A stretch of DNA of 64,000 bases from Hyphomicrobiales bacterium (GTDB taxonomy: Bacteria > Pseudomonadota > Alphaproteobacteria > Rhizobiales > Rhizobiaceae), in contig JAFKJU010000005.1 of assembly GCA_017305935.1 (NCBI GenBank), positions 62,001-126,000 of the forward strand. The letters are read 5' to 3'. The position numbers and the translations under genes were made by a program. Every line of letters starts with the position of its first letter. Positions within the stretch are counted from its first letter, which is position 1. Under the pieces are notes generated by a model. That model was not told the origin of the DNA. It searched no databases and saw only the letters and a list, made by a program, of their open reading frames with translations. Below, in pieces: positions 4,250-30,529 of the stretch.

Positions 4250-5075
4250 AAAGACAATTCGCCAGCGTCACGAATTCCTCGACCGACAGCGTCTCGGCCC
4301 GCCGCTGCGGATCGATGCCGGCCTTGGTCAGCAGCGCTTCGCCGCCGAGGGATTTGACACTCTGGCGCAGCATCTTGCGGCGCTGGCCGAAGGCGGCCTG
4401 GGTCACGCGCTCCAGCTTCGCCACATCGCAGTGCAGCGGCTCGGGGTTCGGCGTCAGATGCACGACGGATGAGGTCACCTTGGGCGGCGGCGTAAACGCC
4501 TGCGGCGGCACGTCGAAGGCCATATGCGCCCGTGTGCGCCAGCCGCAGAGTACGCCCAGGCGGCCGTAATGGTCGTCGTCCTCGCGGGCGACGATGCGCT
4601 GGCCGACTTCCTTCTGGAACATCAGCGTCAGCGATTGCCAGAACGGCGGCCACTCTTTCGGCAGCAGCCAGTTGACCAGCAACTGCGTGCCGACATTGTA
4701 GGGCAGGTTGGCGATGATGCGCACCGGGCCTTCCGGCGCCAAAGCCTCGAAATCCGTCTTGAGCGCATCGCCTTCGATCACTTCCAGCCGGCCGGGATAA
4801 TGGTCGGCGACTTCGGCGAGCGCCGGCAGGCAGCGCGCGTCGCGCTCGACGGCGATCACCTTCTTGGCGCCCAGCGCCAGGATGGCGCGCGTCAGCCCGC
4901 CCGGTCCCGGTCCCACCTCGAACACCGTCACGCCCTCCAAAGGGCCGGCGGTGCGGGCGATCTTCTGGGTCAGGTTGAGATCGAGCAGAAAATTCTGGCC
5001 GAGCGCCTTGCGCGCGTCGAGCCCGTGCCGCTGGATGACATCCCTCAGCGGCGGTAGTCCGTCCAAAGCGGCCAT
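4248..5075 (-). CDS. rsmA: 16S rRNA dimethyladenosine transferase
   Basis: KsgA family: dimethylates the two adjacent adenines near the 3' end of 16S rRNA with S-adenosylmethionine, late in small-subunit assembly. Motifs are LGQNFL (residues 25-30), the SAM-binding [10 protein letters not shown] (53-62), and the catalytic NLPYN (123-127). Length is 275 aa, normal. Its ATG overlaps the pdxA stop by one base, so translation is probably coupled. It is the last gene of the lptF-lptG-lptD-surA-pdxA-rsmA run; the surA-pdxA-rsmA order is the classical one also found in enterics. Confidence 0.96.
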
Positions 5076-6091
5076 CAGCCTTCCTTCTTCGATGTGGCGG
5101 CCAGTTCGCCGGCAAGCCGCAACGCCGCGATCAGGCTGTCGGCCTTGGCCGCGCCGGTGCCGGCCAGCGAGAAGGCGGTGCCATGGTCCGGCGAGGTGCG
5201 GATGAAGGGCAGGCCGAGCGTGGCATTGACCGAATCGTCGAAACCCAGCGCCTTGGCGGGAATCAGCGCCTGGTCGTGATACATGCAGATGGCGACGTCA
5301 TAGGTGGCGCGCGCCGCATCGTGGAACATGGTGTCGGCCGGCAGCGGCCCCCGCGCATCGATGCCCTCGGCTTGCAGCGCGGCAATCGCCGGGCGGATGA
5401 CGGCGTCGTCCTCGCGCCCCATCGTGCCGTTCTCGCCGGCATGGGGATTGAGGCCAGAGATCGCCAGCCGCGGCGCGGCGATGCCGAAACGGTCGCGCAG
5501 GTCGGCATGGGCGATGCGGCAGGTGTCGAGGATCAGCTCGGTCGTCAGCGCCGCGGGCACCGCGCTCAGCGCGATGTGGATGGTGACCGGCACGGCCCGC
5601 AGTTTTGGGCCGGCGAGCAGCATGACCGGCAACAGCGGCTTGCCGATGGCGCGCGTGGCGAGGTCGGCCAGGAATTCCGTATGTCCGGGAAAAGCGAAGC
5701 CGGCCTCATACAGCACCGCCTTGGCGATGGGATTGGTGACGACGGCAGCGGTTTGCCCACCGATGGTCAGCGCGACCGCCATCTCGATGGCGGCGATAGT
5801 GCCGCGTGCCGTCTTCGAATCCGGCTGGCCGGGCGTGACGGTCGCACCGGCCGCGATCGGCAGGACGGGCAGGGCATCGGCGAAGATGGCCGCGGCGCTT
5901 GCCGGGTCGGCCTCGCGCAACGGCACATCGCGCCCGAGCGTTTTCGCACGGGCGGCCAGCACGTCGGGATCGCCGAGATAGAGGAAGGGCGGCAGGTTCA
6001 GCGCCGCCCGGTTTTCCCAGGCGGCCAGCGTAATGTCGGGGCCGACCCCAGCGGGGTCGCCCTGGGTCAAGGCGAGGGGTGGCATCGTCAT
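5075..6091 (-). CDS. pdxA: 4-hydroxythreonine-4-phosphate dehydrogenase
   Basis: NAD-dependent step of the DXP-dependent pyridoxal-phosphate pathway, oxidising 4-phosphohydroxy-L-threonine. Family blocks are [13 protein letters not shown] at the N-terminus, [46 protein letters not shown] and TSPDHGTAF; the His and Asp residues in the last three bind the metal. Length is 338 aa. Two start codons, at 6091 and 6085, are equally possible (the protein begins MTM). It sits 6 nt after the surA-like gene and overlaps rsmA by one base. Confidence 0.95.
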
Positions 6092-22863: not shown

Positions 22864-22886
22864 TTGCTGGCATCTACCTCTCCTTC

Positions 22887-22992
22887 CGTCATGCTCGGGC
22901 TTGTCCCGAGCATCTAACCACGGAAAATATACTGTCAGGTTCAACTATTTGGCAGGCGTGAGCAGATCCTTGGGACAAGCCCGAGGATGACG
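22887..22992. repeat. Large inverted repeat (106 bp) downstream of ndk
   Basis: The left arm (22887-22915) and right arm (22964-22992) are 29 nt long and complementary at 26 positions; the core is CTCGGGCTTGTCCC. The left arm alone also holds a perfect hairpin, ATGCTCGGG-CTTGT-CCCGAGCAT (22891-22913). The 48-bp middle is AT-rich. Such elements are common between genes of rhizobia; no transposase or target duplication is seen. It resembles a non-autonomous palindromic repeat unit. Confidence 0.75.
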
Positions 22993-23023
22993 AAAATTAA
23001 CGGGCAGGGTGGATTGGAAATTG

Positions 23024-23051
23024 AGCCGGGGCGCAACCGCCCCGGCTTTTT
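23024..23051 (+). terminator. Intrinsic terminator downstream of ndk
   Basis: AGCCGGGGCG (23024-23033), loop CAAC, CGCCCCGGCT (23038-23047), then a T-run (23047-23051). A perfect 10-bp GC stem plus T5 in the ndk direction. It abuts the stop codon of the convergent lipoprotein gene. Confidence 0.85.
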
Positions 23052-23560
23052 CATGCCGGGCAGCTGGTTTCCGGCGAATAGTCGGTAGTGCCGTCCGGTT
23101 TCTGCAGGTCCGGGTTTTTCGTATAGGCCGGGCCGACGACCAGTGGCTTGGCCGGCAGGATCGTCTGGTCTATATCGGAGACCACGGTCGTTTCCAGCGA
23201 TTGCAGCAGCTTGTGGTCGGCATCGAGGATGCGGATCTTGACGCCGTAGCGCTTGTCCTTGACCACGCAATGCACCGGCGGGCTTTCCAGCACGATCTTC
23301 TCCCAGAAGGGATAGATTTTCGAGACCTCGACAATCGGCGCGCCGCCGGCCGGGTTTTCGTATTCGGTCTCGACGCTGCCGTTTTCCGGCAGCGGCGCCT
23401 TGCGCGCCAGCGTCAGCATATAGGTGGCGGTGGCGATGCGGTAATTGAAGACGAACATCTTTCCCGAGATTTCAGTGATGCCGTCCTTGGCCTCTCGCTG
23501 GCAGGCGCCAAGCGCCAGCGCCGATGCCAAAAGAGTTGCTGTGAGCAAAAGACGTTTCAT
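23051..23560 (-). CDS. Small lipoprotein of unknown function
   Basis: 169 aa. The signal peptide MKRLLLTATLLASALALGAC has a lipobox LGAC with Cys at 20, so it is a predicted lipoprotein. The mature part is hydrophilic with no domain I recognise. It has three further Cys or near-C-terminal features (PVHCVVKDKRYG, and ETSCPA at the end), so a disulphide is possible. Its ATG overlaps the stop of the CGNR regulator gene by 4 nt (ATGA), so the two are translationally coupled and share the palindrome-controlled promoter. Confidence 0.75.
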   Translation of the reverse strand: MKRLLLTATLLASALALGACQREAKDGITEISGKMFVFNYRIATATYMLTLARKAPLPENGSVETEYENPAGGAPIVEVSKIYPFWEKIVLESPPVHCVVKDKRYGVKIRILDADHKLLQSLETTVVSDIDQTILPAKPLVVGPAYTKNPDLQKPDGTTDYSPETSCPA

Positions 23561-24108
23561 GCATCGGCTCCTTTCGTCCTGCGCCGGTAATGGCGGCTGG
23601 CCTTGACGCGATTGCCGCAGACGGCCATGTCGCACCAGGCGCGGCTCTTGTTCTTGCTGCGATCCAGGAACAGCCAGCCGCAATTGCCGCAGATCTTCAT
23701 GCGCCCGTCATCGGGTAGCGCCGCGAGCCGCAGCGCCGAACGCGCCGTCTGCGCCCCAAGATCGTCCTCGGATGCTGCGCCCCGCAGGCAGGTTGCTGCC
23801 GAAGTCAGCAGGTCGGCCAGCAAGGCGCGGCTGTCATCTCCCTCGACCCGGGCGCGAAAATAGCGGTCGATGGCCTCGCGCAATGCCAGGAAATCCGCTT
23901 CTTCCGCATGGCCCGGCGGCGTCATCGCCGCCGGCAATCCCGGTTCGCCGCTGAGCCGCGCTGCCGCCTGCGGAAAGGCATGCAATTGATCGCGCAGGGC
24001 AAAACGGTCGATGCGCCGCGCCGGGTCGAAGCGCAGCACGACGCTGTTGGCGACATCCAGCGCCAATGCGCCACCGGAAAATCGATGCGGGGTCCAGGCA
24101 AAACTCAT
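23557..24108 (-). CDS. CGNR zinc-finger / ABATE-domain regulator
   Basis: 183 aa. An N-terminal ABATE-type region (about 1-130, with ALDVANSVVLR) precedes a C-terminal CGNR zinc finger: CGNCGWLF then WCDMAVCGNR, four Cys in two pairs, followed by a basic tail SRHYRRRTKG that would contact DNA. Proteins of this class are treated as stress-related transcription regulators. ATG at 24108 is preferred over the TTG at 24114. A 30-bp palindrome starts 10 nt upstream, in the gap to the divergent permease gene, which strongly suggests autoregulation and control of both directions. Confidence 0.85.
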   Translation of the reverse strand: MSFAWTPHRFSGGALALDVANSVVLRFDPARRIDRFALRDQLHAFPQAAARLSGEPGLPAAMTPPGHAEEADFLALREAIDRYFRARVEGDDSRALLADLLTSAATCLRGAASEDDLGAQTARSALRLAALPDDGRMKICGNCGWLFLDRSKNKSRAWCDMAVCGNRVKASRHYRRRTKGADA

Positions 24109-24117
24109 GGGCAAATT

Positions 24118-24147
24118 ATAACTGGCAAAATGAATTTTACCAGTTAT
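24118..24147. promoter_or_regulatory. 30-bp near-perfect palindrome, probable operator
   Basis: ATAACTGG-C-AAAAT-GA-ATTTT-A-CCAGTTAT: 13 of 15 positions pair around a centre at 24132.5. It lies between the start of the CGNR gene (24108, minus) and the LivH-like permease gene (24174, plus). The AT-rich centre also suits a -10 element. The most economical reading is an operator bound by a dimer of the adjacent CGNR protein; the GGTAAAAT half also resembles GntR-type sites. Confidence 0.75.
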
Positions 24148-24173
24148 TCTTGAGGCGAGAAGGACGCCGTTTC

Positions 24174-25070
24174 ATGCTCTATCTGTCGCAACAGATCGCC
24201 AATGCCTTGCCGCTGGCGGCGCTTTATGCGCTGCTGGCCTTCGGTTATGCGATCGCCTTTGCGGTGACGAAGCGGGCGGACCTGACCTATGGCGCGCTGT
24301 TTGCCTTTTCCGGGCAGATGTATGTGCTGTTCGTCGATGTCGGCTGGAACCGGCTGTGGCTGGTGCTGCCGGCGGCGCTGGCGCTTGGCATGGCGGCGGC
24401 GCTCGCCTATAGCGCGCTTGCCGCCGCCGTCATCGGACGCGAGGTCATGGCGCGGCTGGCCTTTTCGACGCCGAACACCGTGATCGTCGCCGGCCTTGGT
24501 TGCCTGATCGTGCTGATGGAAACGGCGCGGCTGGCTTCGGACACCCGCAGCCTGTGGCTGCCGCCCTTCCTCAATCGGACGGTGGCGCTTTGGCATGTCG
24601 GCGGCGTGCCGGTGACGCTGACAGCGATCCAACTCGTCAATGTCGCCGTGATGATCGGCCTGATCGCGCTGGGTTCGCTGGGGCTGACGCGTACGCGCGC
24701 CGGGCGTGTCTGGCGGGCTGTGTCGGACGATGCGCGCGCGGCGGAATTCTGCGGCGTCGATGCCAAAGGCGTCTTCCTCGCCGCCTATCTCGCGGCGGCG
24801 ATGATCGCAGCGGTCGCCGGCCTGATGGCGACCTCCTATTACGGCACCATGGATTTCGGCGCCGGCCTGATCTTCAGCCTCAAGGTGGTGATGATCGCCT
24901 CGATCGGCGGCGTCAGCGATCCCCTGCGCTCGGCGCTGGGGGCGGCGTTGCTGGGACTGACAGAAACCGTCTGGAGTTCCTTCGCGCCGATCGTCTGGCG
25001 CGATCTCTTCCTGTTTTCGCTGCTGGTGGTGATCGTGGTCATGACCCGGCGGGAGAAGGTCGTTCCCTAA
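24174..25070 (+). CDS. Branched-chain amino acid ABC permease, LivH-like (orphan)
   Basis: 298 aa with about eight membrane helices and the BPD_transp_2 pattern: FGYAIAFAVTKRADLTYGALFAFSGQMY near the N-terminus, the EAA-like segment RAVSDDARAAEFCGVDAKG, and the C-terminal SIGGVSDPLRSALGAALLGL. LivH normally works with LivM, LivG, LivF and a binding protein; none is adjacent, so partners must be elsewhere or the role differs. ATG at 24174 is preceded by AAGGAC. It is divergent from the CGNR regulator across a palindrome and ends exactly where the convergent moaE ends. Confidence 0.82.
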   Translation: MLYLSQQIANALPLAALYALLAFGYAIAFAVTKRADLTYGALFAFSGQMYVLFVDVGWNRLWLVLPAALALGMAAALAYSALAAAVIGREVMARLAFSTPNTVIVAGLGCLIVLMETARLASDTRSLWLPPFLNRTVALWHVGGVPVTLTAIQLVNVAVMIGLIALGSLGLTRTRAGRVWRAVSDDARAAEFCGVDAKGVFLAAYLAAAMIAAVAGLMATSYYGTMDFGAGLIFSLKVVMIASIGGVSDPLRSALGAALLGLTETVWSSFAPIVWRDLFLFSLLVVIVVMTRREKVVP

Positions 25071-30474: not shown

Positions 30475-30500
30475 TCCGCGCCAAGTCTAAGCCTTACGAA

Positions 30501-30529
30501 AAAGCCGGGGTTCGCGCCCCGGCTTTTTT
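30501..30529 (+). terminator. Intrinsic terminator of the Omp25-like gene
   Basis: AAAGCCGGGG (30501-30510), loop TTCGCG, CCCCGGCTTT (30517-30526), then T's to 30529. Textbook stem and T-run. The A-run on the left makes it usable also for the convergent GST gene. Confidence 0.92.

Follow-up and report, generated by a model that had tools for sequence, protein, structure and literature searches.

Between a gene for a CGNR-type regulator and a divergently transcribed gene for a LivH-like permease lies a 30-bp palindrome (Table 1), which raises the question of what reads this site and to which of the two genes it belongs. When the window (the whole 64-kb stretch of DNA analyzed) was searched again for inverted repeats, the 30-mer paired at 13/15 positions, in agreement with an earlier sequence-only reading of the locus, and its arms (24118-24131 and 24134-24147) paired at 13/14 positions. 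The core dyad on the plus strand is TAACTGGCAAAATGAATTTTACCAGTTA, and in the direction of the regulator gene the palindrome and the start codon read AATAACTGGTAAAATTCATTTTGCCAGTTATAATTTGCCC-ATG. Two distances had to be corrected by one nucleotide: the ATG codons (24108 on the minus strand and 24174 on the plus strand) are separated by 65 bp instead of 66 bp, and the palindrome ends 9 nt, not 10 nt, from the regulator ATG.

Table 1. Features of the CGNR-lipoprotein/permease unit, in window coordinates
Feature	Position	Strand	Basis
Candidate operator dyad, 30 bp	24118..24147		Core TAACTGG-CAAAATGAATTTTA-CCAGTTA at 24119-24146, span 28
Half-site 1, TAACTGG (TAACY core)	24119..24125	+	Arm conservation in 44 non-redundant loci; TAACY family-wide
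Half-site 2	24140..24146	-	CCAGTTA on +, TAACTGG on -
Dyad centre, 4 nt, unconserved	24131..24134		Mean 0.28 bits
Predicted -10 box TATAAT, CGNR-lipoprotein promoter	24115..24120	-	TATAAT or TATATT in 76/80 orthologous loci
Predicted -10 box TATTCT, permease promoter, overlapping half-site 2	24145..24150	+	TATAAT, TATTAT or TATGAT at the mirror position in 53/80 loci
CGNR/ABATE regulator, 183 aa	23557..24108	-	PF11706 (2.5e-16) and PF07336 (6.9e-6), both above cut-off
zf-CGNR treble-clef finger (Cys140/143/159/164), then basic tail	23578..23703	-	Profile match and invariant cysteines
Lipoprotein	23051..23560	-	LGAC lipobox; beta-sandwich model; 4-nt overlap with CGNR gene
LivH-like ABC permease (BPD_transp_2)	24174..25070	+	PF02653 (2.6e-27); no LivM/F/G adjoining
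Likely ribosome-binding site AAGGA of permease	24160..24164	+	Sequence

The regulator scored 59.6 bits against the zf-CGNR profile (gathering score, 24) and 27.1 bits against the ABATE profile (gathering score, 24.4). Residues C140, C143, C159, C164, G165, N166 and R167 were invariant in 23 orthologues; the AF2 model has low confidence in the finger tail. The stop codon of the CGNR gene and the start codon of the lipoprotein gene share ATGA (23557-23560). The lipoprotein matched no Pfam or NCBIfam family in profile searches and was modeled as a single beta-sandwich (pLDDT 83.7). A role as the solute-binding protein of an ABC transporter was considered and rejected, since the model does not have the two-lobed substrate-binding fold. 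The permease matched PF02653 over its full length (positions 2-269 of 269) with 96.1 bits (gathering score, 26.8), and its best NCBIfam match was LivH (NF008011), with 77.4 bits under a curated cut-off of 379. Inspection of the neighboring genes revealed none for LivM, LivF, LivG or a periplasmic binding protein beside the permease; the neighbors of the unit are ndk, moaE, moaD and pgsA. Between ndk and the lipoprotein gene (22885-22995), inverted CTCGGGCTTGTCCC-like copies resemble rhizobial intergenic repeat elements. The earlier description of the genes stands: the Cys4 zinc finger with a basic tail agrees with the profile match and the invariant cysteines, the coupling of regulator and lipoprotein genes holds because they overlap by ATGA, and the compact unit of regulator, lipoprotein and permease without LivM/F/G is borne out by an arrangement that is kept down to 35-38% identity.

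We then compared 80 related Rhizobiaceae loci, retrieved using the regulator as the query. In every one, the permease gene diverges from the CGNR-lipoprotein pair, and moaE and ndk flank the unit. All 80 loci also matched a dyad search pattern that allowed T[AG]AC[TC] and [AG]GTTA, with a span of exactly 28 bp and a position 9-11 nt before the ATG. The information content among 44 non-redundant loci was 1.76 and 1.80 bits per position in the two arms, 0.28 bits in the 4-nt centre and 0.23 bits in the upstream flank; TAACT in one arm and GTTA in the opposite arm were invariant. Distant orthologues (~43-55% identity) carry a TAACTTGTCAAA..CCAGTTA-type dyad at the same position, and the dyad of the Sinorhizobium meliloti unit is TAACTGGTAAACTGGCTTTTACCAGTTA. 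Since it is conserved across orthologous loci, the palindrome is real beyond doubt. In one genome (G059; L253/L259), the permease is split into residues 1-177 and 175-298 by a frameshift or a sequencing error, and the CGNR gene, the lipoprotein gene and the dyad are intact.

The position of the dyad relative to the promoters points to how it may act. Toward the regulator, the -10 box is TATAAT in 43 and TATATT in 33 of the 80 loci; it is completed by the bases that follow GTTA, and the outer edge of half-site 1 overlaps it. In the window this box lies only 6 nt from the ATG, so the regulator gene is expected to give a leaderless transcript. Such transcripts have been described in S. meliloti, with 171 transcription start sites (PMC3616915). 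The -35 elements are weak by consensus, and the -35/-10 distance is ordinary (~16-17 bp).

In our view, the dyad very likely serves the CGNR regulator as its operator. In a regulator dimer, each subunit would set its zinc finger and basic tail on one TAACTGG half-site; the two half-sites measure 28 bp from end to end, and the dimer would thereby cover the cores of two overlapping divergent promoters, with half-site 1 at the -10 box of the CGNR-lipoprotein promoter and half-site 2 at that of the permease promoter. Because the site covers both divergent -10 boxes, the bound regulator would be expected to block both promoters, repressing its own gene as well as the genes for lipoprotein and permease. 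Ligand binding by the ABATE domain would lift this repression, and the ligand plausibly has a connection to the transporter. We infer repression for the present unit only, since a -10 box inside a half-site is not a general trait: the other CGNR subfamilies place the dyad off the -10 box.

On the other hand, the CGNR protein may bind the dyad and activate one or both promoters by MerR-type remodeling from within. Its position would also suit an activator that distorts DNA, as the dyad occupies the -35 and -10 regions of both promoters and the space between them. However, such remodeling is unneeded, because both promoters have good -10 boxes (for the regulator, TATAAT or TATATT in 76/80 loci) and an ordinary -35/-10 distance, and sites right over a -10 box normally repress. 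Activation is therefore improbable, although it is the strongest of the alternatives to repression by the CGNR protein.

Whether the dyad belongs to the regulator or to the permease was addressed in genomes that carry only one of them. When permease orthologues of 29-37% identity (3.5-3.9 kb each) were compared, four without an adjacent CGNR gene (L254, L255, L256 and L258) had no TAAC..GTTA dyad in these 3.5-3.9 kb, while L257, which has a CGNR gene, had the dyad. Conversely, a CGNR-lipoprotein pair without the permease (L181) retained a 28-bp dyad, TAACCGGTAAAAAGTATTTAGATGGTTA. From this pattern, the dyad goes with the CGNR gene and not with the permease. The pair in L181 (genome G037, reverse complement 4930-6015) is followed by an AbrB-family-like transporter membrane protein. 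In L254 (genome G081, 2371-2520), permease and lipoprotein genes stand head to head with neither a CGNR gene nor a dyad between them, and it looks like the regulator is absent together with its operator.

The search of whole genomes gave a similar result. A pattern specific for the unit matched in 16 of 121 genomes of relatives, at one place each and always at this unit, and reversed-pattern controls over the 121 genomes gave 0 matches. The sequence-only reading had named two findings that would speak against an operator, namely a dyad that is not conserved where the gene pair is, and a dyad beside unrelated genes with a different regulator. Neither was found: the dyad is present in 80/80 loci, and the unit pattern occurs nowhere else in the 121 genomes. 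Further copies in the same genome, sought with the unit pattern, were likewise absent besides the locus itself, and no copy of the motif was found in viral contigs. The generic pattern TAACY-N18-RGTTA matched at one other place in the same genome, beside genes for a sugar-binding protein and a LacI-type regulator; this place was attributed to chance, because the matches were fewer than in the reversed-pattern control.

We further explored CGNR genes outside the unit, drawn from scans of the order, class and phylum and from plasmids, including genes of Actinomycetota and Bacillota. For distant genes a fixed 270-bp stretch was scanned, many start codons being not fixed. Among 49 non-unit representatives (<45% mutual identity), an unsupervised 5-mer count ranked TAACC/GGTTA first, with 34 regions against 12.7 expected from dinucleotide shuffles, and the top 5-mer dyad was TAACC..GGTTA, with 17 against 0.33 expected. 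When the letters of the half-site were permuted (30 permutations), TAACC came first with 17 and the runner-up had 4. The inward pair TAACY..RGTTA occurred in 24/49 upstream regions, compared with 3/1351 control windows from the flanks of the same loci, which are mostly coding and higher in G+C; the contrast was unchanged with low-G+C controls (435 windows).

The dyads fall into two classes of span. In 68 representatives (<60% identity), the spans were 18 (14 cases), 19 (3), 28 (17) and 29 bp (16), with few elsewhere, and the 18-19 and 28-29 classes differ by one helical turn. A dyad of either class was found in 33/68 genes, compared with 4 occurrences in 201 kb of flanks. When the rule was fixed beforehand and applied to held-out CGNR genes from other orders, 8/9 had the dyad, and the flanking DNA (25.7 kb) had 1 site. 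When 55 regulators were placed on a tree, the span class required 4 changes, compared with 13.4 for shuffled labels (0/500 as low). Since the shuffles ignore relatedness, this result indicates an operator geometry inherited with the regulator, not single residues that set the span. The expected co-variation of dyad and CGNR protein therefore holds at the level of subfamilies, where geometry tracks the tree, and not for individual finger residues. Taken together, these data go beyond the local operator first proposed and suggest that zf-CGNR/ABATE regulators probably recognize DNA by a common rule, under which two TAACY half-sites form an inverted repeat that spans either 18-19 or 28-29 bp, the two classes being one helical turn apart and inherited with the subfamily.

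The exact TAACY dyad was absent from the scanned stretch in 35/68 non-unit CGNR genes, so the family must also use other half-sites or operon promoters. Some of these genes probably sit within operons (e.g., L219 and L223), and the fingers of others perhaps read different DNA (e.g., L156 and L158, with ACACCAGTATAAATATTATACTGGTGT). Upstream of L156, L158 and L168 there are other palindromes (ACACCAGTATAAATATTATACTGGTGT; TAATGGTCATGACCATTA) and no TAACY, and the fingers are without the usual Met of the WC-x-M motif. Loss of this Met is possible as a specificity switch in these few cases; its link with loss of TAACY (1/33 versus 4/35) was seen, is too thin and is not claimed. The promoters of several CGNR genes (L143, L151, L189, L210, L218, L224, L262 and L263) have at least two TAACY dyads each, which suggests that some operators may be bound cooperatively by several dimers.

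These results also bear on explanations that do without binding by the CGNR protein. Another, unlinked regulator could control the locus through the dyad, since sites of global regulators are common in divergent gaps and CGNR binding is itself a prediction. This is very unlikely: across the 121 genomes the unit pattern has a single place per genome, always next to the CGNR gene, permease genes that lack a CGNR neighbor lack the dyad too, and the same half-site recurs beside CGNR genes whose neighbors are unrelated. Slightly less probable still is that the symmetry arises from sequence shared by two core promoters placed back to back, with arms free of protein. The -10 boxes are indeed part of the conserved block, but promoter consensus does not include the conserved bases TAACT/AGTTA and CTGG/CCAG, and other CGNR families place the dyad differently relative to the -10 box. 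A chance palindrome in an AT-rich gap can be dismissed, for although a 13/15 30-mer is not rare in 64 kb (shuffled windows have 0-2; the window has a single further one, at 30499-30528, which is an ordinary intrinsic terminator with GCCGGGG..CCCCGGC followed by T), none of 4000 dinucleotide shuffles of the 65-bp gap reached 13/15, and the conservation in 80/80 loci already refutes it.

The reading as an operator of the CGNR regulator, which was first put forward from the palindrome and its neighbor, is thus strengthened by the dyad in all 80 loci, the single place of the unit pattern in each genome, the association of the site with the CGNR gene and the geometry that tracks the tree. Judged from these comparisons of sequence, the regulator very probably uses the dyad as its own binding switch.

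CGNR/ABATE proteins are widespread in Pseudomonadota and Actinomycetota and are annotated as "putative stress-induced" regulators on the basis of one crystal structure. If true, a common rule would permit target prediction for a large and almost unstudied family of bacterial regulators. With a half-site rule that applies to unrelated members and extends to held-out loci, the family becomes testable, through target lists, mapping of finger-DNA contacts and a search for ligands based on the genes under control. For such tests the unit studied here is conveniently small, having two promoters and a single site in each genome, and it is also found in the model symbiont S. meliloti.

The sole solved member of the family, Jann_2411 of Jannaschia (PDB 3h0n), is dimeric and has a treble-clef finger with a putative role in DNA binding; the accessible part of its report gives no operator or DNA target (PMC2954205). 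A search of the open-licence literature, also under COG5516 and DUF1470, found no published operator or DNA target for CGNR/ABATE proteins, and prior work elsewhere is possible. Jann_2411 shares the two-domain layout of ABATE and zf-CGNR with the regulator studied here, and 3h0n was its only match in a PDB sequence search. In Foldseek, 3h0n was the top match and the sole high-probability fold match of the regulator model (probability 0.99, TM 0.48, E 0.0097), the full-length agreement being loose. Jann_2411 has neighbors unlike those in the unit, namely an Asr-family regulator and a membrane protein.

The permease has the BPD_transp_2 fold family in common with LivH. Unlike LivH systems, however, the unit has a permease far under the LivH cut-off and a beta-sandwich lipoprotein in place of LivM/F/G and a substrate-binding gene. 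In divergent autorepressor-transporter pairs, such as those of the TetR, GntR or MarR types, one inverted-repeat operator lies over both promoters. By analogy, the CGNR regulator would control itself and a transporter. The reading head differs from theirs, as it is a CGNR treble-clef finger instead of a helix-turn-helix, and it would recognize TAACY in two spans. What is new is the CGNR reading head and its half-site rule, while the divergent arrangement would work like the classic autorepressor-transporter pairs.
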